In this document: positions 306 to 25,051 of the stretch, piece by piece
Layout: each line of letters opens with the position of its first letter
Position numbering within the stretch: the stretch's first letter is position 1
Assembly: GCA_021795965.1 (NCBI GenBank)
Contig: JAJYOU010000001.1
Coordinates: 62,001 to 126,000, forward strand
Length of the DNA stretch: 64,000 bases
From: Chloroflexota bacterium
GTDB taxonomy: Bacteria > Chloroflexota > Anaerolineae > Anaerolineales > Villigracilaceae
Direction: 5' to 3'
The notes under the pieces: model-generated
What the model saw: the letters and a program-made list of their open reading frames with translations, nothing else
What the model was told of the DNA's origin: nothing
Databases searched by the model: none
Translations under genes and position numbers: made by a program

Positions 306-752
306 TTATTTCTTATTTTCCAAATTCCAAAGTAACGCCTGTAAACCCGCAAAATAACTCCACCTGCCAAAGCCGGCGCAGACGCCCAGGCAAACTGGAG
401 CGATCACGGATTTATGGCGAAACTCCTCGCGGGCGTGCACATTGGAAAGGTGAGCTTCGACGACTGGCAGCTTGACCGCTGCAATGGCATCGCGCAGAGC
501 GATACTGTAATGTGTCAAAGCACCCGCATTCAAAACAATTCCATCTGCCCATTTGTAAGCATCATGGATCGCATCCACGATAGCACCTTCATGATTTGAC
601 TGGAAATCTCGAAGTTCAACATTCCTTTCGGCGGCATATTGTTTCAAATCTTTGACGATGGTTTCGAGGGAGTCTGTTCCGTAGACTGCAGGATCGCGGA
701 TGCCCAACATATTCAGATTGGGTCCATTCAAAAGCAAAATTTTAAAGCCCAT
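306..752 (-). CDS. aroQ: Type II 3-dehydroquinate dehydratase family protein
   Basis: LNGPNLNMLGIRDPAVYG, QSNHEG and VEAHLSNVHAREEFRHKSVIAPV motifs of the AroQ family. Confidence 0.85.
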   Translation of the reverse strand: MGFKILLLNGPNLNMLGIRDPAVYGTDSLETIVKDLKQYAAERNVELRDFQSNHEGAIVDAIHDAYKWADGIVLNAGALTHYSIALRDAIAAVKLPVVEAHLSNVHAREEFRHKSVIAPVCLGVCAGFGRWSYFAGLQALLWNLENKK

Positions 753-777
753 GTTTTGATCCTTTTCTCCGTTCTGG

Positions 778-2187
778 TTAAAAAGTTTCGGTACCGTAGA
801 ATTCGCCGAAGAGTTCTTCTTCTGATGGACGGTCTTCAGGAATCGGTCTGCTGACCCAGGTTACATTCATGTAGTGCTTGAGGTGGATATTTTCGGAGGT
901 ACTATTGCCACCCCAGGTGCCGCATCCCAGGCTGGAGGTCATGGGCATGCCATTGGTGAACGAGCCGGCATTCGCTTTTGACTGCGGCTGGCGAACCATG
1001 ATGCGACTGACGGGTGCCATGAGTGCCAGTTGGTTGACATGTTCATCATTGAAGGAGTAAATCCCGCAAGAATGTCCCTTCCCGCCAACCTCGTAAATCT
1101 GTTCGACCATTTTCAGCGCGTTATCAAAGCCGCTGTACTTAAAAATTGCCAGGACAACACATAGTTTTTCGCTTGAAAATAAATACTCTTTTCCAATATG
1201 TTCTTCCTTGACGATGATAAATTTGCGATCCTCGGGAATGGAAAAACCAGCCCGGTTTGCAATTCGTTGTGCTGAAATGGCGACTGTATCGGAGGTGCGG
1301 TGACCTTCAGCATCCCAAAGAATAGCCTGCAATTTATTTTTTTCGTCTTCAGAAGTTAAATATCCACCTTCTTTAACTAGTTGATCGAGAAACCGGTCAT
1401 AGATGCTGGCTTCAACCACTAAATTACCGTCAGCAGAGCAACCGGAGCCAAAATCTGAGGTTTTGCTCATGCGAGTATTGCGGGCGGCATCCGCGATATC
1501 GGCGGTTTCGTCGATGACCATGGTCGAGTTTCCAGCTCCGACGCCCAGTGAAGGTGTGCCCGAACTATAAGCTGCTCTAACCATTTGCTGACCGCCTGTA
1601 GCCTGGACGAGGTCGCAGATTGCCATCAGTTCCTGCGAAAGAGGAATGCTCGGATTTTCGACGCACTGGAAGAGATCCTCAGGCGCGCCTTCGCGTTTGA
1701 GTGCTTCGCGCATGAGACGAACCGTTTCAAAAGAGGTTTTTTTACTGCGAGGGTGCGGCGAAAAAATGACGGCATCCCGGCACTTCATCGCAAATATACC
1801 TACTCCCGGGGGGGTGAGTTCTGGGTTGGTGGTGGGTACGATTGAGGCTATAACTCCAACAGGTTTGGCATATTTGATGATGCCTTTTTCGGGAATTTCT
1901 TCAATAATTCCAACACTTTTTTCTCTGAGGACGTCACGCAAAATTCCCATTACTTTAAAGCGCTTACTGACACGTCCGACGGGATCACCAAGACCACTTT
2001 CTTCAACCCCCATCACGGCGAGATGCGTGAACGATTTTTCATTGGCAACCGCCCAGCCAATTGCCTGGCAAAGGCGATCCACCCGGGCCTGGTCATAATT
2101 TTCGACTTCTTTCTGGGCAATGCGGGCTCGGTTTAAAAGTTCAGCGGCATACGCCTTTTCTTCGGGAGTAATTGATCTTGCTGCCAT
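778..2187 (-). CDS. CoA-acylating aldehyde dehydrogenase (acetaldehyde/sulfoacetaldehyde dehydrogenase-like)
   Basis: IASIVPTTNPELTP, GAGNSTMVID, and FGSGCSADGN with the catalytic Cys; EutE/SauS-like architecture. Confidence 0.8.
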   Translation of the reverse strand: MAARSITPEEKAYAAELLNRARIAQKEVENYDQARVDRLCQAIGWAVANEKSFTHLAVMGVEESGLGDPVGRVSKRFKVMGILRDVLREKSVGIIEEIPEKGIIKYAKPVGVIASIVPTTNPELTPPGVGIFAMKCRDAVIFSPHPRSKKTSFETVRLMREALKREGAPEDLFQCVENPSIPLSQELMAICDLVQATGGQQMVRAAYSSGTPSLGVGAGNSTMVIDETADIADAARNTRMSKTSDFGSGCSADGNLVVEASIYDRFLDQLVKEGGYLTSEDEKNKLQAILWDAEGHRTSDTVAISAQRIANRAGFSIPEDRKFIIVKEEHIGKEYLFSSEKLCVVLAIFKYSGFDNALKMVEQIYEVGGKGHSCGIYSFNDEHVNQLALMAPVSRIMVRQPQSKANAGSFTNGMPMTSSLGCGTWGGNSTSENIHLKHYMNVTWVSRPIPEDRPSEEELFGEFYGTETF

Positions 2188-2220
2188 TTAATACCTCCAA
2201 TTACAATCAGTATGGTTGAT

Positions 2221-3012
2221 TCAGTTTGTTTCTGGCAATTTCCTGTCAGAGGGTCCATCATATCCATGATCTACGGGGTCGATCCGGCGCATGGGGGTCA
2301 TCCGATTAATCTCCTCATTAGCGTGGGCTAAAATTCCAGTCAGACGAGCAACCATAAATAATGCGTTTGAAAGACTTGGGGGAAATTTTATTTCACAAAG
2401 GATTGCTGCGGTTGCGCCATCGATATTAATTGGAAATTCCTTGCCAGTGCTACGCTTCAAAGCTCGGACGATTGCCTGGGCAGATTCAAGATATAAGCCG
2501 GAAACACCTGCATTTCTTGCCAATTCAAAAAGGCGCTCGAGGCGGGGATCCAGCTTTTTATGCTGCCTGTGCCCAAACCCGGCAATCCTGCGACCAACCT
2601 GGCGCCATTCTGCCACCAGCTTATCGGCTGCGTGATCCAATTCATCTTTTTGACCGCCAGCCAAATCATAAACCTTTTGAATGGCTTCCATGGAATCTTC
2701 CACGGCAGCGCCGTGAAATTTATTGAGAGTAAGCAAGCCGGCTGCAGCAGCTGCACCTAAAGGTGCACCGCCAGAAGCAGTGGTGCGCGCGGCAAGAACA
2801 GAGGGAGCCCCCGCGCCGTGATCTATGCTAGCCACCATTAAGGCATCAATCAGCCTGGCAATTTCAGGTTCTGGAAGTTCACCCGTGAATAATAGATATA
2901 AAACCGAAGGAAATGGGACGACACCGATCAGTTCGATTAAGTTATAACCACGAATGATGATCCCGTTTTCGGTTGTAGAAGAAAGGCTGGTGGTCCAGTG
3001 GTAATCGCCCAT
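2221..3012 (-). CDS. Short citrate synthase-fold protein (citryl-CoA lyase-like)
   Basis: 263 aa; RGYNLIELIG N-terminus, GFGHRQHKKLDPRLERL and FALARLTG-like region (MVARLTGILAHANEEI) of the citrate synthase superfamily. Confidence 0.75.
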   Translation of the reverse strand: MGDYHWTTSLSSTTENGIIIRGYNLIELIGVVPFPSVLYLLFTGELPEPEIARLIDALMVASIDHGAGAPSVLAARTTASGGAPLGAAAAAGLLTLNKFHGAAVEDSMEAIQKVYDLAGGQKDELDHAADKLVAEWRQVGRRIAGFGHRQHKKLDPRLERLFELARNAGVSGLYLESAQAIVRALKRSTGKEFPINIDGATAAILCEIKFPPSLSNALFMVARLTGILAHANEEINRMTPMRRIDPVDHGYDGPSDRKLPETN

Positions 3013-3020
3013 GATGGTTC

Positions 3021-3860
3021 CTAATCTGGAGTGTTGGAAAATTGAAGAGTTCGGCTGAGTTCTAATTTGGATTCTTTTGGAATAAACCCCATTGCCTGTG
3101 ATATTTTTCCTGTAGCCTGTTTAAGCAATTCAGCGTATTCTTCCATCTTTTCCTCTGAAAAGCGTGTGCTGGGTCCAGAGATGGTAATTGAGCCTATTAT
3201 TTTCCCGGTCATATCAAAGATTGGAGCGGCGACGCAGGATACCCCTTCAACACGTTCGCCCTGACTGATTGAATAGCCACATTCCCTGATCTGTTCCAAT
3301 TCCTGATTTAAAATTTTTGGATCCGTTGTCGTGTTGACTGTCAATTGTTCAAGAGATGCGTTTTTAAGAATTTCATTTTGCTGCCCCGGTGGCATGTAAG
3401 ATAGCATTACCTTGCCACTTGCACTGGCATAATACGGCATCCTCTCGCCTATCCGGGCGACCCAGCGCAATCTGTGTGAACTTTCGATGCGCTCGATGCA
3501 AATACGCGTCATTCCATCTGGAATATCGAGGTGGACGGTCTCTTCGGTTTTTTGGTGTAATTCTTCCATGTAAGGGCGGGCTTCAGCTCTGAGATCGAAG
3601 CTGCTCATATAGACTGACCCCCATTTTAGAACTTTGGACCCCATGCGGTAGAGGTGGGTGTCTTTGTCCTGGGTCAGAATACCCAGGGAGGTCAAGGTCA
3701 CCAGCATCCGTCCGACCGTGCTGGGATGCAGCTCCAATTGCCGGGCGATCTCACGAACGCCTAATTCCGGCTGAATATCACGAAAGCAATCCAAAATAGC
3801 AACTGCTCGATGAATACTTTGTGTCTCATTGATCGGCATAGTCATATTATTTTGTCCCAT
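3021..3860 (-). CDS. IclR family transcriptional regulator
   Basis: N-terminal HTH (SIHRAVAILDCFRDIQPELGVREIARQLELHPSTVGRML) plus IclR effector domain. Confidence 0.9.
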   Translation of the reverse strand: MGQNNMTMPINETQSIHRAVAILDCFRDIQPELGVREIARQLELHPSTVGRMLVTLTSLGILTQDKDTHLYRMGSKVLKWGSVYMSSFDLRAEARPYMEELHQKTEETVHLDIPDGMTRICIERIESSHRLRWVARIGERMPYYASASGKVMLSYMPPGQQNEILKNASLEQLTVNTTTDPKILNQELEQIRECGYSISQGERVEGVSCVAAPIFDMTGKIIGSITISGPSTRFSEEKMEEYAELLKQATGKISQAMGFIPKESKLELSRTLQFSNTPD

Positions 3861-5035: not shown

Positions 5036-5251
5036 ACTTTGAATAAGGAAAAGGGGTATTTTTAGGTGAAACGGTTGCCAAAAAGCAGGAAATAGTTATA
5101 CTTGACGAGAGGTTGTCTGATAAGACCATCGTTCGGATCATCCTCTATTTTAGGCTTCCCCTTTTTTCTTTTAATTCATTCAATCTTCCAGCGCGTAGAC
5201 GTTGATTAACCGTAAATGATATTTTGCAACAAAAATTTTGCAGGAGCGAAA

Positions 5252-8200
5252 ATGGGAATTCCTTTTCCAGTTCCAAATTCGAATTGTATCCCTTCGCCGG
5301 TAGAATTCTTTTTCGAGCGAGAGAATGAAATTAATTTAATGCTTGATTTCATCATGAGGGATTATGATCAACTCTCCTCTGGAAAAACCTGCGTGATTGA
5401 CGGTCCGGATGGAATAGGGAAAACCGAGCTGTGCCAGGTGGTTGTGAACCGCCTACCCGGGGAATATTTTGATGCAAAAGTGTATATAAAAATTGAAGAG
5501 TCAGAAACAGGCGATGAACTTCTGCACAAGATTCTGGAAATTCTCATTCACGTTTTTAATCCCCTGGCACTTCTTCCTGATGATCCCGCGGTGTTACAGC
5601 GTCAATTTCAATCCGAATTGAAAAATAAAAAAGTACTGATCATCTTGGATGATTTAGAGAATATCGAACCTGTTTCATTAATCATCCCGACAATTTCGTG
5701 CATTTTCCTGATCACTGCAACAAAACCGCTTGAAATCCCGAATGCGTTGTCCATCCATCTCGGAGGGCTTTCTCAAAAGAGTTCAGAAGCTTTGCTGCAA
5801 AATATTTGCCCGCGAACAGGTCAATATACAGCCGGGATGGCTTCCACCTGCAGAAATAATCCCCTCTATTTACGTTTAATTGCAAGACTTTTAAATTTCC
5901 TCCCTGAGCTTCAAGTCGATCTTTGCATGGATGATTTGCGAAAACGATTTGAACAAGGCGGGGTTGATCAATATGATTTCCTGACTGAACCTTTTATAAC
6001 CTATATATTGGAGCAAATTCCTCCAACCCAAAAACTATTTATCAACCAGCTCGGGGTGATTCCTGAAGGATTTAGGGAAAATCTGGCGATCGAGTTGGAC
6101 CAAATGATTTCGGGTGAAAACGATCAACCCGAAATGACCAGAGCGAAACTTGAGGCGTTAATCCGATTAAATTTTATAACGCATGATCCTACAAGAAATT
6201 ATTACCGCATGCAAGCAACCGTACAAAAATTTGTTTTGAGAAAATTTGAGAATGCATTTTCAGCATGGTTCAGCCTGGCAAAAATTTATGCAGACCAGGT
6301 TGATTGGTTCACCACTCTGGCTGGCAAAGATGCAGATGGATTTCTGCTTGCAATTTCAGTATTCGATGAGCATAAATCAAAGATTAAGAAAATCATACGT
6401 TTTTTACAGGACCACCCTGTTAAAGCATTGGATGAAACAAGGTTGGAGCTTTTTCGCCTGGTTCATTTGTTTGGACAGTGCCGTTTTTTCCCTGGAGCTG
6501 AGATGGTTCCCCTGATGGAATCGGAGCTGGAAATTGCAGCGCGTCTGAATCAAAAGGAAAAAATAATTTCGGTTTCCAAAGAACTAGCCAGAATTTGCCT
6601 GGCTGTAGGAGAAAAAAAGAAATCCCAGTTATATGCTCGGATCCAGGACAGCCTGGTTGATGACTACGCGAAAGATAAAATCCGGGAGATCCTGGAAGAA
6701 ATTCGAAATGGCAGGCAAGAAGATTTATCAACATTGGAAGCATTCAAGGCGCATGAATCGGGAACAGAGTCATTCAATTTGAGCCAATTTCCGATTGACA
6801 AAACAAAAATAATCCTGACTGGGTTTATGGGAACAGGTAAAACGACGATCGGAAAATTACTTTCAGATTCTCTCAAGTACGAATTTATTGATACAGATGA
6901 ATTTATCGAATCAAAATACGGAATTTCAATCAATGACATTTTCAAGAAATACGGGGAAGAGGAATTTCGAAAAATAGAGCGCAGTATTGTCAAAGAAATC
7001 GGAGTTAAGGAATCTATTGTGATTTCGACGGGTGGACGGCTAATGCTTGATCCTGAAAATGTCAGCATTCTCAGCCGGAATGGCCGGGTTTTTTGCCTGG
7101 TAGCGACGCCAGATGAGATCTTGACGCGCGTTTCAAAGGATAAAACACATATTCGACCGTTACTGAGCGTGCCGAATCCAAAAGAACGCATTGTTGAATT
7201 GTTACAGGAACGGAATGACAAGTATCGGAGGTTTCCACAAATAATCACGGACCAAAAAGAGCCAACATCCATCGCCAGAAATTTAATAGAATTTATAACG
7301 ACAAATCCAAAAAGCATTGTGGTCGAGAATCCCCATAAAAATTACGAATACATCGTCGGCGCCGGGTTGCTGCCTTTTATCCGGCAATTGACAGGAATTG
7401 AAGGTGAAATTGTCATCATCAGCGATGAGGTTGTCAATGCTTTGTATGGTCCAAGTTGTGCTTCAATGGGTCAAATTATTGAAATTCCCTCCGGCCGGCA
7501 GAACAAGTCCCTTGAAACCGTGCAATCTGTTTATGATCAATTACTTGAAAAAGGCTTTGATCGAACTGGAACCATCATCGCTTTAGGGGGAAGTGTTGTG
7601 GGTGATATAGGTGGGTACGTGGCTGCAACATTTATGCGCGGAGTAAATTTTCTTCAGTGCCCAACCAGCCTCCTGGCAATGGTGGACACCAGTGTCGGTG
7701 GAAAAACGAGCATTGATCTTCCACAAGGTAAAAATATGATCGGAGTTTATAAACAACCTGCCAAGATCATTGCGGATGTCGCCACACTTCAAACCCTGCC
7801 AAAATCAGATTTCGCTTCTGGGCTGGCGGAAATCGTCAAATATGGCTTGATTGCAGAATCCAATTTGCTGGAACAGGTGGAAGATGGGGATCTTGGAAAA
7901 AACTGGAATCAAATCCCATTAAACATCGGCGAATTACAAAACCTTGTCGCGCAGGCAATCCAGGTCAAAATCAATATCGTGCAGACCGATCCATTTGAAC
8001 AAGGACAGCGTCCGATATTAAATTTGGGGCATACTTTCGCTTATGCGATTGAACAAGTCAGTGGCGATGCTTTTCGCCATGGTGAAGCAGTCAGCATTGG
8101 GTTGGTCGCCGCGGTTAATTTGTCTGCCAGGTTGGGATATTGCGATGCTTCCCTGCAGAATCGAATTGAAGCCATTCTAAGAAGTGTAAATTTGCCAATA

Positions 8201-8374
8201 CAAATACCAACGCAACTAAAACCTGATGCGATCTTTCAAGCCATGCAGCGAGATAAGAAAAAACAAGCCGGGCGATTAAGATTTATTTTAATTAGTGGAA
8301 TTGGACGAGCATTTGTTTCTGATGAAGTTCCCAAACGAGAAGTAATGGAAACTATCTCGGCATTATATGATTGA
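5252..8374 (+). CDS. Trifunctional-looking fusion: STAND/NB-ARC-like NTPase, shikimate kinase (AroK), 3-dehydroquinate synthase (AroB)
   Basis: One uninterrupted ORF. N-terminal Walker A GPDGIGKTEL and Walker B KKVLIILDDLEN; AroK IILTGFMGTGKTTIGKLL...FIDTDEFIE (about 6800); AroB GGSVVGDIGGYVAATFMRGV...DTSVGGKTSIDLPQGKNMIG...NLGHTFAYAIE (about 7320-8370). ATG at 5252 with CAGGAG upstream is preferred over 5216. Confidence 0.9.
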   Translation: MGIPFPVPNSNCIPSPVEFFFERENEINLMLDFIMRDYDQLSSGKTCVIDGPDGIGKTELCQVVVNRLPGEYFDAKVYIKIEESETGDELLHKILEILIHVFNPLALLPDDPAVLQRQFQSELKNKKVLIILDDLENIEPVSLIIPTISCIFLITATKPLEIPNALSIHLGGLSQKSSEALLQNICPRTGQYTAGMASTCRNNPLYLRLIARLLNFLPELQVDLCMDDLRKRFEQGGVDQYDFLTEPFITYILEQIPPTQKLFINQLGVIPEGFRENLAIELDQMISGENDQPEMTRAKLEALIRLNFITHDPTRNYYRMQATVQKFVLRKFENAFSAWFSLAKIYADQVDWFTTLAGKDADGFLLAISVFDEHKSKIKKIIRFLQDHPVKALDETRLELFRLVHLFGQCRFFPGAEMVPLMESELEIAARLNQKEKIISVSKELARICLAVGEKKKSQLYARIQDSLVDDYAKDKIREILEEIRNGRQEDLSTLEAFKAHESGTESFNLSQFPIDKTKIILTGFMGTGKTTIGKLLSDSLKYEFIDTDEFIESKYGISINDIFKKYGEEEFRKIERSIVKEIGVKESIVISTGGRLMLDPENVSILSRNGRVFCLVATPDEILTRVSKDKTHIRPLLSVPNPKERIVELLQERNDKYRRFPQIITDQKEPTSIARNLIEFITTNPKSIVVENPHKNYEYIVGAGLLPFIRQLTGIEGEIVIISDEVVNALYGPSCASMGQIIEIPSGRQNKSLETVQSVYDQLLEKGFDRTGTIIALGGSVVGDIGGYVAATFMRGVNFLQCPTSLLAMVDTSVGGKTSIDLPQGKNMIGVYKQPAKIIADVATLQTLPKSDFASGLAEIVKYGLIAESNLLEQVEDGDLGKNWNQIPLNIGELQNLVAQAIQVKINIVQTDPFEQGQRPILNLGHTFAYAIEQVSGDAFRHGEAVSIGLVAAVNLSARLGYCDASLQNRIEAILRSVNLPIQIPTQLKPDAIFQAMQRDKKKQAGRLRFILISGIGRAFVSDEVPKREVMETISALYD

Positions 8375-9356: not shown

Positions 9357-10133
9357 TTGAGTGTCACAAATGTTCATTCAACCCGAGAAAACCCTGGCAG
9401 CCCGCTGGTTGAACTGCGCGATGTTGTCAAGGTATACGAAAGCGAAGCCGGGGAATTTACCGCCCTGGACGGAATCAACACACAAATTTATCCCGGGGAA
9501 TTCCTGGGAGTCATTGGCAAGTCGGGAGCGGGAAAATCGACCTTTCTAAATATGATCACCGGGGTGGATACCCTCACCCAGGGTGACGTGTTGGTTCGGA
9601 CGGAGGGTCAGGAAATTTCCATCCACCGGTTGAGCGAAGATGCGCTGGCTTTATGGCGCGGGCGCAACCTGGGCGTAGTTTTCCAATCCTTTCAATTACT
9701 GCCGATGCTGACTTTACTGGATAATGTGATCCTGCCAATGGATTTGTGCGGCGCCTACAGCCCGCGCGAAAGCCGGAAACGAGCCATGGAACTGCTCGAC
9801 CTGGTGGAAATTGCTGAACACGCCAACAAACTGCCGGCGTACATCTCTGGCGGACAGCAGCAGCGCGTGGCGATTGCCCGCGCATTGGCGAATGACCCAC
9901 CCATTCTGGTGGCTGATGAGCCAACCGGATCGCTGGATTCTGTCACGGCGGATCATATTTTTAGTGTTTTTGAACACCTTTTGGAACGCGGCAAGACCAT
10001 CATCATGGTCACACATGACATGGCTCTTCAGCCACGCTTCAGCCGCCATTTGCTGATCGCTGATGGAAAAATCATTTCGGATGAGAACCCGGCGGGGTCG
10101 GGTCTCCCGCTAAGTGCAATCCAGGCGAGATAA
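9357..10133 (+). CDS. ABC transporter ATP-binding protein (MacB/LolD type); TTG start
   Basis: Walker [35 protein letters not shown]. Confidence 0.9.
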
Positions 10134-10134
10134 T

Positions 10135-11352
10135 ATGGAATTCACTATACGCAACTTTCCTTCCAACCCAACGAAAACTCTGGCAACTTCCGGTTTGACG
10201 ACCGAAACCCAGGGTTCGCCCATGATTGACCTCCGCAAAATTGTCAAAATTTTTAAAAATGCAGCGGGCGAGTTCACCGTGCTCAAGGGTATCGACTTAA
10301 CCATCCAGCGCGGACAATTCGTCTCCATTGTGGGCAAATCAGGAAGCGGAAAATCGACTCTCCTGAATATGATCACGGGTATTGACCACCCCACGCACGG
10401 ACAGGTTTGTGTCAATGGCACCGATCTCTATACCGGTAAAAACGAAAGCGATCGTTCGTTGTGGCGGGGTCGCAACCTAGGAATTGTCTTCCAGTTTTTC
10501 CAAATGTTGCCAATGCTAAGCCTGCTGGAAAACGTGATGCTGCCAATGGATTATGCCAACATGTACGATTTTGACGAACGCCCGAAACGAGCGTTGGAGC
10601 TTCTGACCCTGGTGGGACTGGAAAAACAGGCTCGTAAACTACCATTGGCTGTATCCACTGGACAGCAGCAGCTAGCGGCGATTGCCCGGGCACTGGCTAC
10701 CAACCCACCACTGCTGGTGGCGGATGAACCCACCGGTAACCTGGATTCCCGGTCTGCTGACCACATCATTGAGTTATTTGACCAGCTGGTCAGGGAAGGC
10801 AAGACAGTGGTGATGGTCACCCACGATTCCTCCCTCACCGCCCGAACGACGCGAAATATCATCATCTCTGACGGTGAATTAATCGATGAAACGGTTGCAA
10901 AGACCTTGCCGCTGCTCAAACATCGACAAATGCTTGTGGTGACGAAGAAGGCGGAGCGGATGACTTTTCAACCCGGGCAGGCAATCCTGAATCGCAATAT
11001 CCATGTCGATTCCTTTTTCATGATCGCGCAGGGTGTTGTAGAAATTGTTCTACAGGGAAACAAAAGCGAAGATTTGATCGTATCGCGCCTGGTACCCGGG
11101 CAGTATTTTGGTGAAGTGGAACTATTGCGCGGGGATAAATCGATTGCCAGCGTTCGAGCGGCAGCGGATAACCCGGTCGAACTACTTGCGCTCAAACGGG
11201 ATGATTTTTACGTCTTGTTGAAGGAATCCCCTTTAACAGAAGAAACGCTCGAAAAGGTTGCACAACAGCGCCTGGAAGAAAATAGATCCTTGGATCGACG
11301 CGGGCATTCCACTGGCGTTCAGAAAGATTATGATGAGACCTCGCTGGCGTAA
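10135..11352 (+). CDS. ABC transporter ATP-binding protein with C-terminal cyclic-nucleotide-binding-like domain
   Basis: Walker A GKSGSGKST, degenerate signature VSTGQQQLAAIARAL, Walker B VADEPTGNLDS; C-terminus FQPGQAILNRN...FFMIAQGVVEIVLQ...LVPGQYFGEVELLRGDKSIASVRA is cNMP-domain-like. ATG at 10135 directly follows the upstream stop. Confidence 0.88.
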   Translation: MEFTIRNFPSNPTKTLATSGLTTETQGSPMIDLRKIVKIFKNAAGEFTVLKGIDLTIQRGQFVSIVGKSGSGKSTLLNMITGIDHPTHGQVCVNGTDLYTGKNESDRSLWRGRNLGIVFQFFQMLPMLSLLENVMLPMDYANMYDFDERPKRALELLTLVGLEKQARKLPLAVSTGQQQLAAIARALATNPPLLVADEPTGNLDSRSADHIIELFDQLVREGKTVVMVTHDSSLTARTTRNIIISDGELIDETVAKTLPLLKHRQMLVVTKKAERMTFQPGQAILNRNIHVDSFFMIAQGVVEIVLQGNKSEDLIVSRLVPGQYFGEVELLRGDKSIASVRAAADNPVELLALKRDDFYVLLKESPLTEETLEKVAQQRLEENRSLDRRGHSTGVQKDYDETSLA

Positions 11353-16507: not shown

Positions 16508-19500
16508 ATGCAGTCCAACGTTCCAAATGCCGATGTTGAACCCGTTACGACATCGGATACTGTGATTACGGAAAAATGGTTAAGAGAACTTGCAAGAAAA
16601 ATCGCAGCGCAAGCTGTACCCGTCCCAAACCCTATTAACCAAAATTATCTTCCCGTCCTTTTAAAATCATTGGGGGAATATCTCACTTCGGTTCACCATT
16701 ATTTCGAAGAAACCAGCGGTTCCGAGGCAAGTGTTTCAAATACTGCTGAGTGGATGCTGGATAATTTTTATTTGATTGAACAAACATTACGCCAGGTGGG
16801 GGAAGATATATCTCCAAAGTTTTTCGAACGTTTGCCAAAGGTAAGAATTGATGGTCAAGAAACACTGCGCATTTTTACCCTGGCTTTAATACTCACTAAA
16901 ACTACCGACAGCCGTCTTGGCATAGATCAAATCCAAAACTTTATTGAAGCATTTCAAAGCATTACCCCGCTTCAGATAGGGGAAAACTGGGCACTGCCGC
17001 CAATGTTGAGATTGAGTATTTTGGAAACATTGGTGGATGCCCTGGTACGCATTACGAAATTAAACATTCCGCCTTTAGAAACCCTGGATGAAAAGTATCC
17101 GGTGGTGATCAATCTCTGGGCTGAAAGTTCTGGCGATCGACGCCTCACTCCCAGAGTATCGGACGAAACCATCGTTGTTAATTGTTTCCTGAGCTTGAGG
17201 ATGCTTGCCACGCAAAACTGGCATGAGTTTTTTGAGATTATCAACGTTGTAGATTCCATCCTGCGCAAAGATCCGGCGGGCGTTTATTCTCAAATGGATT
17301 TTGAGACGCGCAACCGATACCGTAATTCGATCGAAGAACTTGCATCCCATTCACATTTTGATCAAGCCGCAATAGCAAGTGAAGCGTTGAACCAATCCCA
17401 AAATGGAGTGTCGTTCAGGGCGCATCATGTTGGCTATTATTTAATCGGTCCAGGCAGGCACGAATTTGAAAAGTTGGTTGGCTATCGAACCCTGCATGAA
17501 AGATGGTTTCGCAAATGGCTAACGCAATATTCACTGCCAATTTACCTGACCAGTATTATTTCGCTCACATTAATCCTTTGCACGGCACTGGCTTCGTATG
17601 CGATTTATGCTGGTGGAAGTTTGCTGCAGATAATCCTTGCTTTTGCTCTGACCTTATTTCCCGCCTCAGCGGTTGCAGTAGATTTTGTAAACTGGCGGGT
17701 GACCCAAATCGTGCCGCCTCGCAGGCTTCCGAGACTTAATTTTAAAGAAGGGATTCCCGCCGAATCCGGTGTGATGGTGGTCATTCCATCTTTATTGAAA
17801 AATGAATCCGAGCTGAATTCCCTGCTAGATCAACTGGAAAATCATTATCTTGGGAATACCGATCCAAATATTCGTTTTGCTTTACTGACGGATTACGTTG
17901 ACGCACCTGAAAAAGAATTGCCAGGAGAATCAGAATTAATCCAAAAAGCAAAGGATGGCATCGATCAACTCAATTTGCATTACGGAAATGAGGGCGTATT
18001 CCCTTTTTACCTCTTCCACCGGGAAAGATCCTGGAATGCAAGTGAAGATTGCTGGATGGGTTGGGAGCGCAAGCGGGGAAAACTTGAGGATTTCAATAAA
18101 TTGATTCTGGGTAAGGATACTGGAAATTTTTCGTTCCAGGTCGGTGACCTATCTTGTTTATCCAAAATCCGATTTGTTGTGACATTGGATGCGGATACAA
18201 CTTTGCCGAGGGATAGCGTCCGACAATTTGCTGGTATCCTGGCACATCCTTTGAACCAGGCTGAGTTCGATGAGAAAACCGGTATGCTGCGGGATGGGTA
18301 TGCAGTGATTCAGCCACGTTTGCAAGTCCGACCCAATGTGGCAAACCGATCCATCTTCACTCGAGTTTTTTCCGGGGATATGACTCTTGATCTTTATACG
18401 AGAGCAGTTTCAGATGTTTACCAAGATTTATTTGGTGAAGGGAGTTATGTCGGCAAAGGGATTTACGATGTGGCAGCATTTGAAAAATGTCTGGATGGAC
18501 GCATCCCTGACAATATGCTTTTAAGCCATGATTTGTTCGAAGGAATGTATTCACGCTGCGGGCTGGCATCTGACATCACTTTATTCGAAGATTACCCAAC
18601 CCATTACCTGGCATTTTCAAACCGCTTGCATCGTTGGATCAGGGGGGATTGGCAACTTCTTCCCTGGTTACAACCACAGGTTCCACATAAATTAAATGGA
18701 AAAATCCAAAACACCCTTTCCGGGCTGAGTCTCTGGAAGATCATTGACAATTTGCGGCGAAGCCTGGTCAGCCCATTTACTCTCGCATTTCTAATTTCAG
18801 GTTGGTTCCTCCTGCCCGGGATAACGCTCGTTTGGACCTTACTGGCTCTTTCACCAATTGCTTTTTCAATTTTGATCGGCTTAATTTCATCAGTACGCGC
18901 CAGAGGAACGGATCAATTCCCTGAGACAACATCCAGACCGGTCCAACAAGCACTTTTATATGCTTTTTTTGAAATTGTATTCCTGACCCATAAATCACTG
19001 GTTGTTTCTGATGCAATCGTTACAACTATTTATCGGATGACAATCACGCATAAAAGACTCCTGCAGTGGGTCACGGCGGCTCATGTCATAAATATCTTTG
19101 GGAAAGAATTAAAAGTACAAGTCGCCTGGCGCGAGATGTTCCTAGCACCCATTTTTTCCATTTTATTATTTGTGCTGGCGTGGCTCGTCAATCCCATTAT
19201 TTTATGGGTGGCTCTGCCCTTCCTAGTATTATGGATTTTATCACCTCAAATTGCAGCAAAAATCAGTCAGCCAATTTATCGTGAGCAGAGCAAAATCACT
19301 CCACAGCAGGAAACCTCCCTGCGGCAGCTGGCTCGATCGACCTGGTTGTTTTTTGAAAAATTTGTTGGCCCAGATGATCATTGGCTACCCCCAGATCATT
19401 TTCAGGAAGATCCTCTCGGACTGATTGCGCACCGCACATCCCCCACTAACATTGGATTGCTTTTGCTTTCTACTCTCTCTGCATGGGACCTGGGGTATAT

Positions 19501-22500
19501 TGGTCCCCGAGAAATAGTGATACGGGTGCAGAACACCCTGGACGGAATGGATAATTTAAACAAAGAACGCGGACATTTGCTGAATTGGTATGATACACGC
19601 ACTTTGGCACCTCTGACACCGCGTTATATTTCCACCGTGGACAATGGCAATTTAGCCGCCTGTCTTGTCACTTTACGACAGGGGTGCAGAGATATCGCAG
19701 ATAAACCAATCATTCGCTGGGAAGGATTGATCGATACTCTGGACGTTCTGGATACGACTTTAAGCCATGCCCATCTTGGTAAAGATGCGATTGAATTGCA
19801 CAAAATTATTGCAAATTTACGGGAAAAAGTAAATAAACTGCATCATTCGGACCAATTCAACTCCCATCTGCTGGTGGAACTTTTCCAGGAAAGCCGTACT
19901 GAACTGGAAGAGTTGTTGACCCAATCCATCAAATCTTCAACAGAACAGTTGGATGCCGATACGATCCGCGGCATCTCAGTCTGGATCGAGAGGGTTCACC
20001 ATCACATGTTTCAGGTTCGACAGGATATTGAAATCCTGAGCCCCTGGGCATTGACAATGTTTCATATTCCGCCATTTTTTTCCCAAAATAATCTCAGCCC
20101 CGATCTTTCCTTCGCATGGCAGGAATTCAGATCCAGCCTGCCTTTCAACCCAATTCTTGAAGAAATCCCTAATATTTGTTCGCGATCGTTATCAGTAATT
20201 GATCGGATCGTATCCATTCTCCCTCTGGATGAAGAGGATGCAATTTCCTGGTGTCATTCAATGGCAATTCACATTAAGAATGCGCAGGAAGCTTCAAGTT
20301 CATTAATAAATGATCTCAATTTAATTTATGACCGGATTGATACCTATATAGAGGAGATGAACTTCAACTTTCTCTACAATGCACAAAGAAAAGTTTTTCA
20401 TATCGGTTACAACGTGGATAATGGACAACTCGACTCGAGTTATTACGATTTGCTTGCATCAGAAGCACGGTTGACCAGCCTGCTGGCAATAGCAAAAGGA
20501 GATGTACCGCAAAATCACTGGCTGCATCTAGCACGTCCAATCACCCAGGTAAATGGGGCGCGCATCCTGCTTTCATGGAGCGCAACAATGTTCGAGTACC
20601 TGATGCCTGAATTACTGACACAACATTATCCAGATACATTGCTCGAACAAAGTTGCCGCGGCGCGGTGGACTATCAAATCTCTTATGGACAAAGCAAGCA
20701 TGTCCCCTGGGGGATTTCCGAATCCGGTTTCTATTATTTCGATAACAATCAAGCCTATCAATATCGCGCCTTCGGTGTTCCCGGGCTGGGTTTTAAGAGA
20801 GTCACCGGTGATGATCTTGTCATTTCACCCTATGCTTCCATGCTTGCGTTACCATTTGCGACTCAATCTGTTTTGCATAATCTTGAACATCTTAAAAAAT
20901 TAAATATGGTCGGATTGTATGGGCTGTACGAAGCCGTCGATTTTACCGCCGAGCGTCTCTCCACCGGGCAGGATTATGCAATCGTTCGTTCCTACATGGC
21001 GCATCATCAAGGGATGATCCTGCTCTCGTTATGTAACTCTCTTTGTGGAAAAAGTATGATTCGACGTTTCCATAGCGATCCGCGCGTTGAAACTGTCAAA
21101 ATTCTTCTGCAGGAACAAACACCCATCCGCGCACCAATTGAACGAATCCAACCTAAAATGATTGGAACAATCCATCCGATTAAGACGGCGGTTTCGCTTG
21201 ATGCATGGGAAGTTAAACCTGAAGCTCCGCATCCGCAGGTTCATTATCTCTCCAATGGCAATTACAGTCTTCTCATCACCGCTGCTGGAAGTGGCTTCAG
21301 CCGTTGGCATGATATTGACCTGACGCGTTGGCGGGCGGATGCAACTCTCGATCAATATGGGTCATGGATTTACATTAAAAACCGGGAAACGCACCAGTTC
21401 TGGTCGGCTGGGTTTCAACCTACATCTGCCACACCTCAAAGCGAGCAAATAAAATTCTACCCACATACGGTTGAATTTCTCCGCAGCGATGGAGAACTTT
21501 CCACAAGAACTCAGATCGTTATCGCTCCAAATGTAGACGTTGAGATCCGGCTCGTAACATTGACCAATCATAGTGCAGTGAAACTGGATCTGGAATTAAC
21601 CAGTTATTCAGAGGTGATTCTCTCACTTCAATCCGCCGATGAACGTCACCCAGCATACAACAAACTTTTTATTGAGAGCGAATATATTGAATCCGAAAAA
21701 ATGCTCTTATTTCGTCGCAGACCGCGTTCGGCTGAGGAAAAACCCGTCTATCTCGCTCATTTTTTAATTGGAGAAAAGGATGATTTCCAAATCGCCGGTT
21801 ACGAAACCGACAGGGATCGATTTATCGGTCGCGGCAACACACAAAGAAATCCTTCGATGATCAAAGCAAATTTGCCCCTGTCGAATTCATCCGCCAGCCT
21901 GGACCCCATCCTAGCCATGCAAAGTCGTGTCCAAATCGAAGGTTATGAATCCCAACAAATTGCATTCGTGACACTTGCAGCGCCATCACGTTCAAAAGCA
22001 ATCGAATTAGCTCACCGTTTTGATCAACTGCTGAAGATCAAAAGAACTTTTAGCGAGGCTCGTTCTCAAACAGAACAAGAATTAATTCAAACGAGCCTTA
22101 CGACTTCCCAGATCGAACAATACCAAAAGCTTTTATCTGCGATTCTCTATCCCAGCAGCGAAATGCGGGCAGATTCAGAAACAATCGCATCGAATACTCT
22201 GGGACAATCTGGATTATGGCCATTCGCGATTTCGGGTGACTATCCGATTTTACTTTTACGCGTCAAGAATGAAGAAAACCTTGAATTGTTGAGCGACTTA
22301 CTCCACGCACATGCTTATTGGCGCAGACGCGGCTTGATGATTGACTTCATCATTCTCAATCAGCGGGCAAATAGCTACGACCAAAGTTTTCAGGGAAAGA
22401 TTTATCGCCTGTTGCCCCTGACAAATAGTGATGACTGGCTTGGAAAACGCGGAGGGATCTTCATCCTGAATGAAGATCAAATACCTGATTCAGAACGTAT

Positions 22501-25051
22501 ATTAATAGAAACTACCGCCCGGGTGATTTTGAATGGCGAAATGGGTACTCTGACCGACCAGCTGCAAAAGCTGGACCAATCGCCGATTCGATTGCCAGCT
22601 TTCGTTCCAATCCTGCCTTTAATTGAAAAAACGCTTCCTCTTGCAATATTGAAGCGACCGACTGACCTGTTATTTGATAATGGACTGGGAGGTTTTTCAC
22701 CAGACGGTCGTGAATATATCATTTACCTTGATCGGGATCATACGACTCCTGCGCCATGGAGCAATGTCATCGCAAATCCTGAGTTTGGCTGCCTGGTTTC
22801 CGAATCAGGAATGGGTTGCACTTGGGCTGGCAACAGCAGCGAGAACCGGCTGACACCCTGGCACAATGACCCGGTCAGTGATCCACCAAGCGAGGCGGTT
22901 TATTTGCGCGATGAAGATACTGGCCAGGTTTGGTCACCAACGCCATTGCCGGCAAACGATCACGCGCCTTACCTGATTCGTCACGGAAGCGGATACACAA
23001 TCTTTGAACATAACAGCCATCAGCTGGAGCAAAAATTAAAAGTGTTCGTCGCCCCAGATGCGCCGGTGAAGATTGTCACATTAATAATAAAAAACACCAC
23101 ATCCCGCACGAGACGCATCAATATCACATATTTTGCGGAATGGGTGCTGGGTAGCTCTCGTGAAAATATGGCTCCATATATTATTCCTGAATTTGAATCA
23201 GCCAGTTTGGCATTGCTGGCAAACAATCCATATAACCAGGAATTTGGCAAGCGAGTGGCTTTTTTGGCAGCGACGCGTGAACTGCAGGGATTGACCACTG
23301 ACCGGGCAGAATTTCTCGGCTCAATGGGAAACTACGCCCACCCCCTGGCGCTCGATCGCGTGGGATTAACCGCAAATATCAAAGCTGGTAATGATGCCTG
23401 TGCAGCAATCCAACTTTTATTATGGCTCGCGCCAAACGAAACCAAAGAAGTTTCTTTTCTTCTCGGCGAGGGACAGGATCGCGAGGATGCGCTTTCCTTA
23501 ATTACCCATTATCAAAACCTTGAGAATATCGAAAAAACATGGAATTCGCTGGAAGGTTTTTGGGATGACCAAATCGGCAACATTCAAGTAAAAACCCCGG
23601 ACCCCGCGATGGACCAATTGGTCAATCGTTGGCTGCCATACCAGGCGCTCTCATGTCGAATTTGGGGCCGAACAGCGTTTTACCAATCCGGCGGTGCTTT
23701 CGGATTCCGGGACCAACTCCAGGATGTACTCGCGTTCACTTACACCAAACCTGAGATTCCACGCCAGTTTATTTTAAAAGCTGCGGCGCATCAATTCGTG
23801 GAAGGCGATGTTTTACACTGGTGGCATCCTCCTGGAGATAAAGGAATACGGACTCGCATTTCAGATAATATGCTTTGGCTGCCATTCGTCACCGCCCAAT
23901 ACATTCATGCGACTGGAGATCAATCCATTTTGGATGAACAAGTCTCATTCCTGACTGGTGATCCATTGAAAGAAGGGGAATATGAATCCTATGGCAAGTT
24001 CCCGACTGGCGTAAGCGGTACATTGTTCGAACATTGCCGGCGCGCAATATCCAAAGGTTCAACCGCAGGAAAATATGGTTTGCCCTTAATGGGAGATGGG
24101 GATTGGAATGACGGAATGAATAAAGTTGGCGCGGGAGGAATTGGTGAAAGCGTCTGGCTCGGGTGGTTCCTTTATTCAACATTAATCAGTTTTGCAGAGG
24201 TTTGCAAAGAAGAGCAAGCCGCCGCTTATCATAAACAGGCCGAAATATTGCGAATTTCTCTTGAAAATTCCAGCTGGGATGGGAATTGGTTCCGGCGGGC
24301 GTACTATGATGATGGCAAGCCCCTCGGTTCCATTCAAAATAACGATTGTCAAATTGATTCGATCAGCCAGTCATGGTCAGTCATATCAGGAGCGGGTGAG
24401 CCTCCAAAAACCTTGCAAGCGATGGAATCCTTATACCAGCGGCTTGTCAGAACCAAGGATGGTTTGATTTTGCTCCTCACTCCACCATTTGACCGAAGCC
24501 TTCATGATCCAGGATACATCAAAGGCTATCTACCGGGAATCCGTGAGAACGGCGGACAATACACTCACGCAGCAATTTGGGCTATCTGGGCTTTTGCGGA
24601 GCTTGGACAAAATGAACGGGTATCGGAACTTTTTAATTTCATCAATCCAATCCAGCATAGCGACACACCCGATAAGATAGCCCTTTACCGCGTGGAACCA
24701 TATATCATTGCGGCAGATGTTTACAGCGCGCCACAACACCTCGGTCGCGGAGGGTGGACATGGTATACAGGCTCTGCCAGCTGGATGTATCGTTTGGGTG
24801 TGGAAAAAATTCTTGGCTTACAACTCAAGGGGAAACAGCTGACAATCAAACCATGCGTCCCGGCAGGTTGGAATGAATTCGAAATACACTATCGTTTTGG
24901 AAAATCGTTGTACCATATCCACGTGGATAATTTAAATCGTACTGATACCGATCACATTAAATACACCCTGGATGGCAATTCGGTCAATGAGGATCATGTG
25001 ACCCTGGCAGACGATGGGAATGAACATATTCTCCTGGCCAGTATGGCATGA
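16508..25051 (+). CDS. Cyclic beta-1,2-glucan synthase-like protein (GT84, glucoamylase-like and GH94 domains)
   Basis: 2847 aa; GT core FVVTLDADTTLPRDSVRQFAG and RWIRGDWQLLPW; C-terminal GH94-like YQSGGAFGFRDQLQDVLAF and GDGDWNDGMNKVG; NdvB/ChvB-like size and order. Confidence 0.85.
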   Translation: MQSNVPNADVEPVTTSDTVITEKWLRELARKIAAQAVPVPNPINQNYLPVLLKSLGEYLTSVHHYFEETSGSEASVSNTAEWMLDNFYLIEQTLRQVGEDISPKFFERLPKVRIDGQETLRIFTLALILTKTTDSRLGIDQIQNFIEAFQSITPLQIGENWALPPMLRLSILETLVDALVRITKLNIPPLETLDEKYPVVINLWAESSGDRRLTPRVSDETIVVNCFLSLRMLATQNWHEFFEIINVVDSILRKDPAGVYSQMDFETRNRYRNSIEELASHSHFDQAAIASEALNQSQNGVSFRAHHVGYYLIGPGRHEFEKLVGYRTLHERWFRKWLTQYSLPIYLTSIISLTLILCTALASYAIYAGGSLLQIILAFALTLFPASAVAVDFVNWRVTQIVPPRRLPRLNFKEGIPAESGVMVVIPSLLKNESELNSLLDQLENHYLGNTDPNIRFALLTDYVDAPEKELPGESELIQKAKDGIDQLNLHYGNEGVFPFYLFHRERSWNASEDCWMGWERKRGKLEDFNKLILGKDTGNFSFQVGDLSCLSKIRFVVTLDADTTLPRDSVRQFAGILAHPLNQAEFDEKTGMLRDGYAVIQPRLQVRPNVANRSIFTRVFSGDMTLDLYTRAVSDVYQDLFGEGSYVGKGIYDVAAFEKCLDGRIPDNMLLSHDLFEGMYSRCGLASDITLFEDYPTHYLAFSNRLHRWIRGDWQLLPWLQPQVPHKLNGKIQNTLSGLSLWKIIDNLRRSLVSPFTLAFLISGWFLLPGITLVWTLLALSPIAFSILIGLISSVRARGTDQFPETTSRPVQQALLYAFFEIVFLTHKSLVVSDAIVTTIYRMTITHKRLLQWVTAAHVINIFGKELKVQVAWREMFLAPIFSILLFVLAWLVNPIILWVALPFLVLWILSPQIAAKISQPIYREQSKITPQQETSLRQLARSTWLFFEKFVGPDDHWLPPDHFQEDPLGLIAHRTSPTNIGLLLLSTLSAWDLGYIGPREIVIRVQNTLDGMDNLNKERGHLLNWYDTRTLAPLTPRYISTVDNGNLAACLVTLRQGCRDIADKPIIRWEGLIDTLDVLDTTLSHAHLGKDAIELHKIIANLREKVNKLHHSDQFNSHLLVELFQESRTELEELLTQSIKSSTEQLDADTIRGISVWIERVHHHMFQVRQDIEILSPWALTMFHIPPFFSQNNLSPDLSFAWQEFRSSLPFNPILEEIPNICSRSLSVIDRIVSILPLDEEDAISWCHSMAIHIKNAQEASSSLINDLNLIYDRIDTYIEEMNFNFLYNAQRKVFHIGYNVDNGQLDSSYYDLLASEARLTSLLAIAKGDVPQNHWLHLARPITQVNGARILLSWSATMFEYLMPELLTQHYPDTLLEQSCRGAVDYQISYGQSKHVPWGISESGFYYFDNNQAYQYRAFGVPGLGFKRVTGDDLVISPYASMLALPFATQSVLHNLEHLKKLNMVGLYGLYEAVDFTAERLSTGQDYAIVRSYMAHHQGMILLSLCNSLCGKSMIRRFHSDPRVETVKILLQEQTPIRAPIERIQPKMIGTIHPIKTAVSLDAWEVKPEAPHPQVHYLSNGNYSLLITAAGSGFSRWHDIDLTRWRADATLDQYGSWIYIKNRETHQFWSAGFQPTSATPQSEQIKFYPHTVEFLRSDGELSTRTQIVIAPNVDVEIRLVTLTNHSAVKLDLELTSYSEVILSLQSADERHPAYNKLFIESEYIESEKMLLFRRRPRSAEEKPVYLAHFLIGEKDDFQIAGYETDRDRFIGRGNTQRNPSMIKANLPLSNSSASLDPILAMQSRVQIEGYESQQIAFVTLAAPSRSKAIELAHRFDQLLKIKRTFSEARSQTEQELIQTSLTTSQIEQYQKLLSAILYPSSEMRADSETIASNTLGQSGLWPFAISGDYPILLLRVKNEENLELLSDLLHAHAYWRRRGLMIDFIILNQRANSYDQSFQGKIYRLLPLTNSDDWLGKRGGIFILNEDQIPDSERILIETTARVILNGEMGTLTDQLQKLDQSPIRLPAFVPILPLIEKTLPLAILKRPTDLLFDNGLGGFSPDGREYIIYLDRDHTTPAPWSNVIANPEFGCLVSESGMGCTWAGNSSENRLTPWHNDPVSDPPSEAVYLRDEDTGQVWSPTPLPANDHAPYLIRHGSGYTIFEHNSHQLEQKLKVFVAPDAPVKIVTLIIKNTTSRTRRINITYFAEWVLGSSRENMAPYIIPEFESASLALLANNPYNQEFGKRVAFLAATRELQGLTTDRAEFLGSMGNYAHPLALDRVGLTANIKAGNDACAAIQLLLWLAPNETKEVSFLLGEGQDREDALSLITHYQNLENIEKTWNSLEGFWDDQIGNIQVKTPDPAMDQLVNRWLPYQALSCRIWGRTAFYQSGGAFGFRDQLQDVLAFTYTKPEIPRQFILKAAAHQFVEGDVLHWWHPPGDKGIRTRISDNMLWLPFVTAQYIHATGDQSILDEQVSFLTGDPLKEGEYESYGKFPTGVSGTLFEHCRRAISKGSTAGKYGLPLMGDGDWNDGMNKVGAGGIGESVWLGWFLYSTLISFAEVCKEEQAAAYHKQAEILRISLENSSWDGNWFRRAYYDDGKPLGSIQNNDCQIDSISQSWSVISGAGEPPKTLQAMESLYQRLVRTKDGLILLLTPPFDRSLHDPGYIKGYLPGIRENGGQYTHAAIWAIWAFAELGQNERVSELFNFINPIQHSDTPDKIALYRVEPYIIAADVYSAPQHLGRGGWTWYTGSASWMYRLGVEKILGLQLKGKQLTIKPCVPAGWNEFEIHYRFGKSLYHIHVDNLNRTDTDHIKYTLDGNSVNEDHVTLADDGNEHILLASMA

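Follow-up and report, generated by a model that had tools for sequence, protein, structure and literature searches.

Does a signalling-type NTPase genuinely stand in front of two shikimate-pathway enzymes in one polypeptide, and could it control their assembly? The question is raised by a long open frame in the window, the whole 64,000-nucleotide stretch of Chloroflexota DNA analysed here. The original prediction had read this frame as a STAND ATPase attached to AroK and AroB, had called the combination unexpected, and had raised the possibility of nucleotide- or ligand-controlled assembly of the enzyme.

Integrity and domain content of the fused gene

One stop-free frame of 1040 codons was found exactly where it had first been placed (5252-8374, plus strand), and the motifs quoted at that time were present in its translation. 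The open frame extends from 5216 to 8374. The ATG at 5252 was preferred as the likely start over the in-frame ATG at 5216, because AGGAG precedes it at good spacing and forms a good ribosome-binding site. The N-terminal part is fully open over 516 codons, and its codon use resembles that of the neighbouring genes; in 2000 shuffles of this part, a stop-free run never exceeded 180 codons. Third-position GC was even across the junction (0.401 for the N-terminal part, 0.401 for AroK and 0.392 for AroB). AroKB is unlikely to be made on its own, because no in-frame ATG occurs between 6515 and the AroK P-loop and the two in-frame TTG codons (6734 and 6779) have weak upstream signals. The features of the gene are collected in Table 1.

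Table 1. Features of the fused gene, in positions of the window
Feature	Position	Strand	Basis
Shine-Dalgarno-like AGGAG	5242..5246 (position +/- a base or two)	+	sequence upstream of ATG 5252
Fused gene, 1040 aa: NB-ARC/winged-helix/arm module, shikimate kinase, 3-dehydroquinate synthase	5252..8374	+	
N-module, aa 1-503: NB-ARC NTPase, winged helix, arm, one degenerate TPR	5252..6760	+	homology to Anaerolineales NB-ARC-TPR proteins; Pfam NB-ARC/AAA_22
Walker A GPDGIGKTE, kept	5402..5428	+	alignment with relatives
Walker B VLIILDD, kept	5633..5653	+	alignment with relatives
FLITATKP at the sensor-arginine position, arginine lost (relatives LVTSR; TSR to TAT)	5705..5728	+	alignment
NNPLYLRL, counterpart of the GLPLALR motif, partly kept	5855..5878	+	alignment
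YYRMQATVQ, counterpart of winged-helix RYRLHDL (MHD), His-Asp lost (RLHDL to RMQAT; HD to QA)	6200..6226	+	alignment
Short linker, N-module to AroK	6761..6799	+	end of N-module homology; start of SKI match
Shikimate kinase: P-loop GTGKT, DTD, FR, GGR, RPLL, R/Y motif	6800..7300	+	Pfam SKI, motifs
3-Dehydroquinate synthase: metal/substrate motifs GGKTSIDLPQGKN, GLAEIVKYG, NLGHTFAYAIE, FRHGEAV, RDKKK	7301..8371	+	Pfam, NCBIfam, motifs

The order of AroK followed by AroB after the N-terminal domain was borne out by profile matches. Pfam SKI matched over its full length with 148.4 bits (cut-off 22.1), DHQ_synthase with 145 bits and DHQS_C with 134 bits, all above the curated cut-offs, and the NCBIfam aroB equivalog TIGR01357 scored 337.6 bits (cut-off 305). 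The shikimate kinase is complete in its P-loop and substrate residues, and the dehydroquinate synthase in its metal ligands, with the E, H and H motifs present. Every active-site motif is retained, so both the shikimate kinase and the dehydroquinate synthase of the product most likely work. The bifunctional equivalog models gave scores below their cut-offs (NF010627, 312 against 565 bits; NF010556, 279 against 560 bits), and both models look lineage-narrow. GGR in place of the usual shikimate-kinase GGG is a trait of much of the Promineifilaceae-type clade, since it is common to all three aligned relatives of this type and to the Desulfobulbaceae genome UBA2775. The NCBIfam model of the anaerobic benzoate catabolism regulator also matches the AroK part.

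The N-terminal part proved to be a STAND/NB-ARC domain as proposed, a switch-type ATPase of the sort that immune receptors carry. The original prediction had named failure to match the STAND/AAA superfamily as a refuting result, and Pfam NB-ARC (PF00931) matched with 27.2 bits against a curated cut-off of 23.5, with AAA_22 also above its cut-off. The module matches 17 NB-ARC proteins of the same order or family at 21-30% identity. The homology to Anaerolineales NB-ARC-TPR STAND proteins takes in the whole of residues 1 to about 503 and extends from the P-loop, past the winged helix and arm, into the first TPR. L066 gave the longest pairwise match (residues 30-503), and L059-L070 cover most of the rest. 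TPR arrays come next in the full-length relatives, but in the window protein AroK starts instead at about residue 517, at the place of the TPR sensor and 14 residues past the end of N-module homology. Both Walker motifs are in place in the NB-ARC domain. The MHD-type motif and the sensor arginine are missing, although the winged-helix region aligns, and in place of a C-terminal repeat sensor there is at most one degenerate TPR before AroKB.

In the PDB, the bacterial protein closest to the N-module was AfsR (8k60; E = 7e-4, residues 14-212). An AlphaFold model from the single sequence of the module had a mean pLDDT of 41.7, too low to be informative. Only about 15 residues precede NB-ARC, and no effector domain was found at the N-terminus. 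Models of defence families gave weak P-loop matches only (E 0.005-0.01), and the module did not classify with the anti-phage STAND proteins (Avs and similar).

Genomic setting and origin of the AroKB half

The assembly is 62% complete in 39 contigs, and the fused gene lies on a contig of 182 kb. A same-genus genome has counterparts of the window's EF-G (79% identity), CysK (73%) and CysE (67%), and there too the three genes stand together. The fused gene is solitary, flanked by a DMT-type transporter and a TetR-type regulator, both named from the sequence by eye. In the same-genus loci whose surroundings were read, aroKB shares an operon with aroC and aroQ, and mostly also with aroA and aroE. 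The fused gene is the only AroKB in this assembly. A genus-type DAHPS (75% identity) was found right at the edge of contig C29 (L151, 67-1092), where the usual operon should continue. Because the assembly is incomplete to this degree and C29 ends at the DAHPS, a normal AroKB may lie outside the assembly, and the fusion can be either the sole copy or a second copy.

Several other genes were noted. A divergent chorismate synthase and EPSP synthase (aroC/aroA) pair is found at 21.2-24.2 kb of contig C3 of the same assembly (G000; L152, 6245-9184), with about 40% and 30% identity at best to sampled relatives and Promineifilaceae. Within the window, a type II dehydroquinase, an aldehyde dehydrogenase family gene, a citrate-synthase-like gene and an IclR regulator stand in a row at 306-3860 on the minus strand; this dehydroquinase is 80% identical to the copy of G014, which is on a contig separate from the aroC and aroKB of that genome. 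An ABC-transporter ATPase with a C-terminal cyclic-nucleotide-binding domain (10114-11352; PF00005, 114.7 bits; PF00027, 57.5 bits) adjoins an FtsX-like permease, possibly as a nucleotide-regulated exporter. A single frame of 2847 amino acids (16508-25051) resembles, as read by eye, glycosyltransferases of the cyclic beta-glucan synthase type.

The AroKB half is only about 36-38% identical to AroKB of its own genus. In the tree it fell with 13 members of a single family in the same class (support 97/97), and when named genomes were added it became sister to AroKB of the Desulfobulbaceae MAG UBA2775 (100/100; 55% identity) inside this 13-member clade. We take the family to be Promineifilaceae, because the named Promineifilum nests in the same clade. 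This placement, in the Promineifilaceae clade and not with its own genus, marks the AroKB half as a xenolog. The likeness of the UBA2775 gene reflects either transfer between phyla or contamination of the UBA2775 MAG. That gene is stand-alone (L175, 3393-5054) and lies near aroE and a dehydroquinase-like gene. Some Promineifilaceae-type genomes (G774, G796, G772 and others) gave matches at 53-55% identity to AroB only, in frames of about 355 amino acids, which indicates that AroB is unfused to AroK in part of this family.

Two routes to the fusion were considered and rejected. An NB-ARC gene hidden just upstream of a stand-alone AroKB, from which a fusion could arise by stop loss, was absent in all ten Promineifilaceae loci and also in UBA2775. 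Replacement of the whole pathway from Promineifilaceae does not fit either, as the odd aroC and aroA of the genome are not close to the Promineifilaceae versions. Since no NB-ARC match was obtained anywhere in the UBA2775 genome, the two halves appear not to have moved as a unit.

A fusion in one genome and its possible role

Among the matches listed from about 1,100 different genomes, covering relatives, the order, the phylum, the class and the whole Promineifilaceae-type family, no other AroKB carried an NB-ARC module, as judged by open-frame length in sampled and score-limited searches that rare cases may escape. The same-genus genomes were included, and the AroKB found in the same genus and family is of ordinary length. 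The closest AroKB is a stand-alone gene among the best 80 relatives listed from the GTDB scan. No match was obtained with the N-module alone in 85,462 GTDB genomes, with the whole protein or the N-module alignment in viral contigs, or in plasmids, and a literature search joining NB-ARC and dehydroquinate synthase gave no relevant paper. Two long frames were examined as second fusions and rejected: that of G865 (about 922 amino acids) is AroC-AroK-AroB, and in the 910-aa frame of G041 the AroKB measures 557 amino acids from its start codon. The attachment of a STAND ATPase is unusual, as first supposed, and the proposed search for the same domain order in other Chloroflexota yielded no second genome. 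Separate genes in all close relatives, once named as a refuting result, were indeed found for the NB-ARC part; the joining of AroK to AroB is itself ordinary in these relatives, and this known fusion is common across the order and the class. The truncated STAND gene and the transferred AroKB are truly fused, and this fusion is so far unique; confined to one genome, it does not amount to a conserved system and may be a one-off.

The explanation that we hold to be probable, with some reserve, is a genuine fusion in which an acquired AroKB stands behind a truncated NB-ARC-TPR STAND gene, the enzymes work, and NB-ARC is at most a scaffold. The homology boundaries and the tree show a horizontally acquired AroK-AroB gene in frame behind the STAND gene, in place of most of its TPR sensor; the order of events is inferred. 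In MalT-type STAND proteins, the arm links the NOD to the sensor and keeps the NOD closed (PMC4381067); the fusion has thus retained the NOD and the arm and exchanged the sensor. By analogy with STAND relatives, the module probably still binds nucleotide but would no longer be a classical ADP/ATP switch, because the sensor arginine, the MHD motif and the repeat sensor are gone. It may oligomerise or stabilise the enzyme, and its contribution to catalysis may be nil.

A captured switch, in which the nucleotide or ligand/partner state of NB-ARC assembles or disassembles an active or inactive AroKB ring and so gates aromatic synthesis, seems unlikely. Both Walker motifs are kept, the NB-ARC, winged helix and arm are present in order, and STAND proteins multimerise through the same module in an inducer-dependent manner (PMC4381067); however, the sensor arginine, the His-Asp of the MHD motif and nearly all TPRs are lost, and the arrangement does not recur in other genomes among the matches listed. 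Controlled assembly, as first suggested, found no direct support, although the Walker motifs survive; a degenerate scaffold or a passive appendage fits better. It is rather improbable that the fusion is neutral, with an enzyme that works alone and a decaying NB-ARC passenger: the single occurrence and the degraded switch motifs agree with this, but the long open N-terminal part with neighbour-like codon use and two intact Walker motifs does not. Nothing in the sequences shows selection for the joined form, because no second genome has it.

We give very little credit to an assembly or binning artefact that joined two genes of different molecules in the MAG. The incompleteness and fragmentation of the genome, an AroKB foreign to the genus and a fusion seen once would all suit it, but the two parts share strand and frame with no stop, the junction falls at a domain boundary with even composition, and the 182-kb contig bears genus-like genes in the genus-like order EF-G/cysK/cysE. 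Least credible is an integrated sensor, in which AroKB reads shikimate-pathway metabolites, or a phage protein binding them, and signals through NB-ARC. AroKB after the NOD and arm does match the STAND layout, and a shikimate-kinase-like domain is used in the benzoate regulator family whose model matches AroK; yet no effector domain precedes NB-ARC, the defence-family matches of the N-module are weak or none, and AroKB keeps catalytic motifs that a pure sensor would not need.

Comparison with known systems

NB-ARC/STAND modules, fitted with sensors and effectors, are known to serve in immunity, in the control of transcription and in signalling. One joined to two complete enzymes of primary metabolism would mean that the module is open to recruitment as a regulator or scaffold of enzymes. 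The case also shows an AroKB gene that passed from one distant lineage to another and ended up in a signalling gene. The significance is smaller if the fusion is an accident of one genome.

The C-terminal half has the same domain order and motifs as the bifunctional AroK-AroB enzyme of NF010627 and NF010556, the usual form in Anaerolineae, but known members lack NB-ARC, whereas the window protein has it and scores below both cut-offs. The N-terminal half aligns over about 500 residues, from NB-ARC through the winged helix and arm to the TPR start, with Anaerolineales NB-ARC-TPR STAND proteins (e.g. L059, L060, L066), at about 25% identity; the window protein differs from them in having AroKB for the TPR sensor and in the loss of the arginine and MHD. 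Among structure-solved NB-ARC regulators, AfsR combines a DNA-binding effector with a full sensor, and the window protein has neither. An extra domain ahead of AroKB is also found in the AroC-AroK-AroB protein of G865 (L174, 3203-5971), a three-enzyme fusion of the same class; there the extra partner is another shikimate-pathway enzyme, whereas the partner in the window protein is a signalling NTPase.
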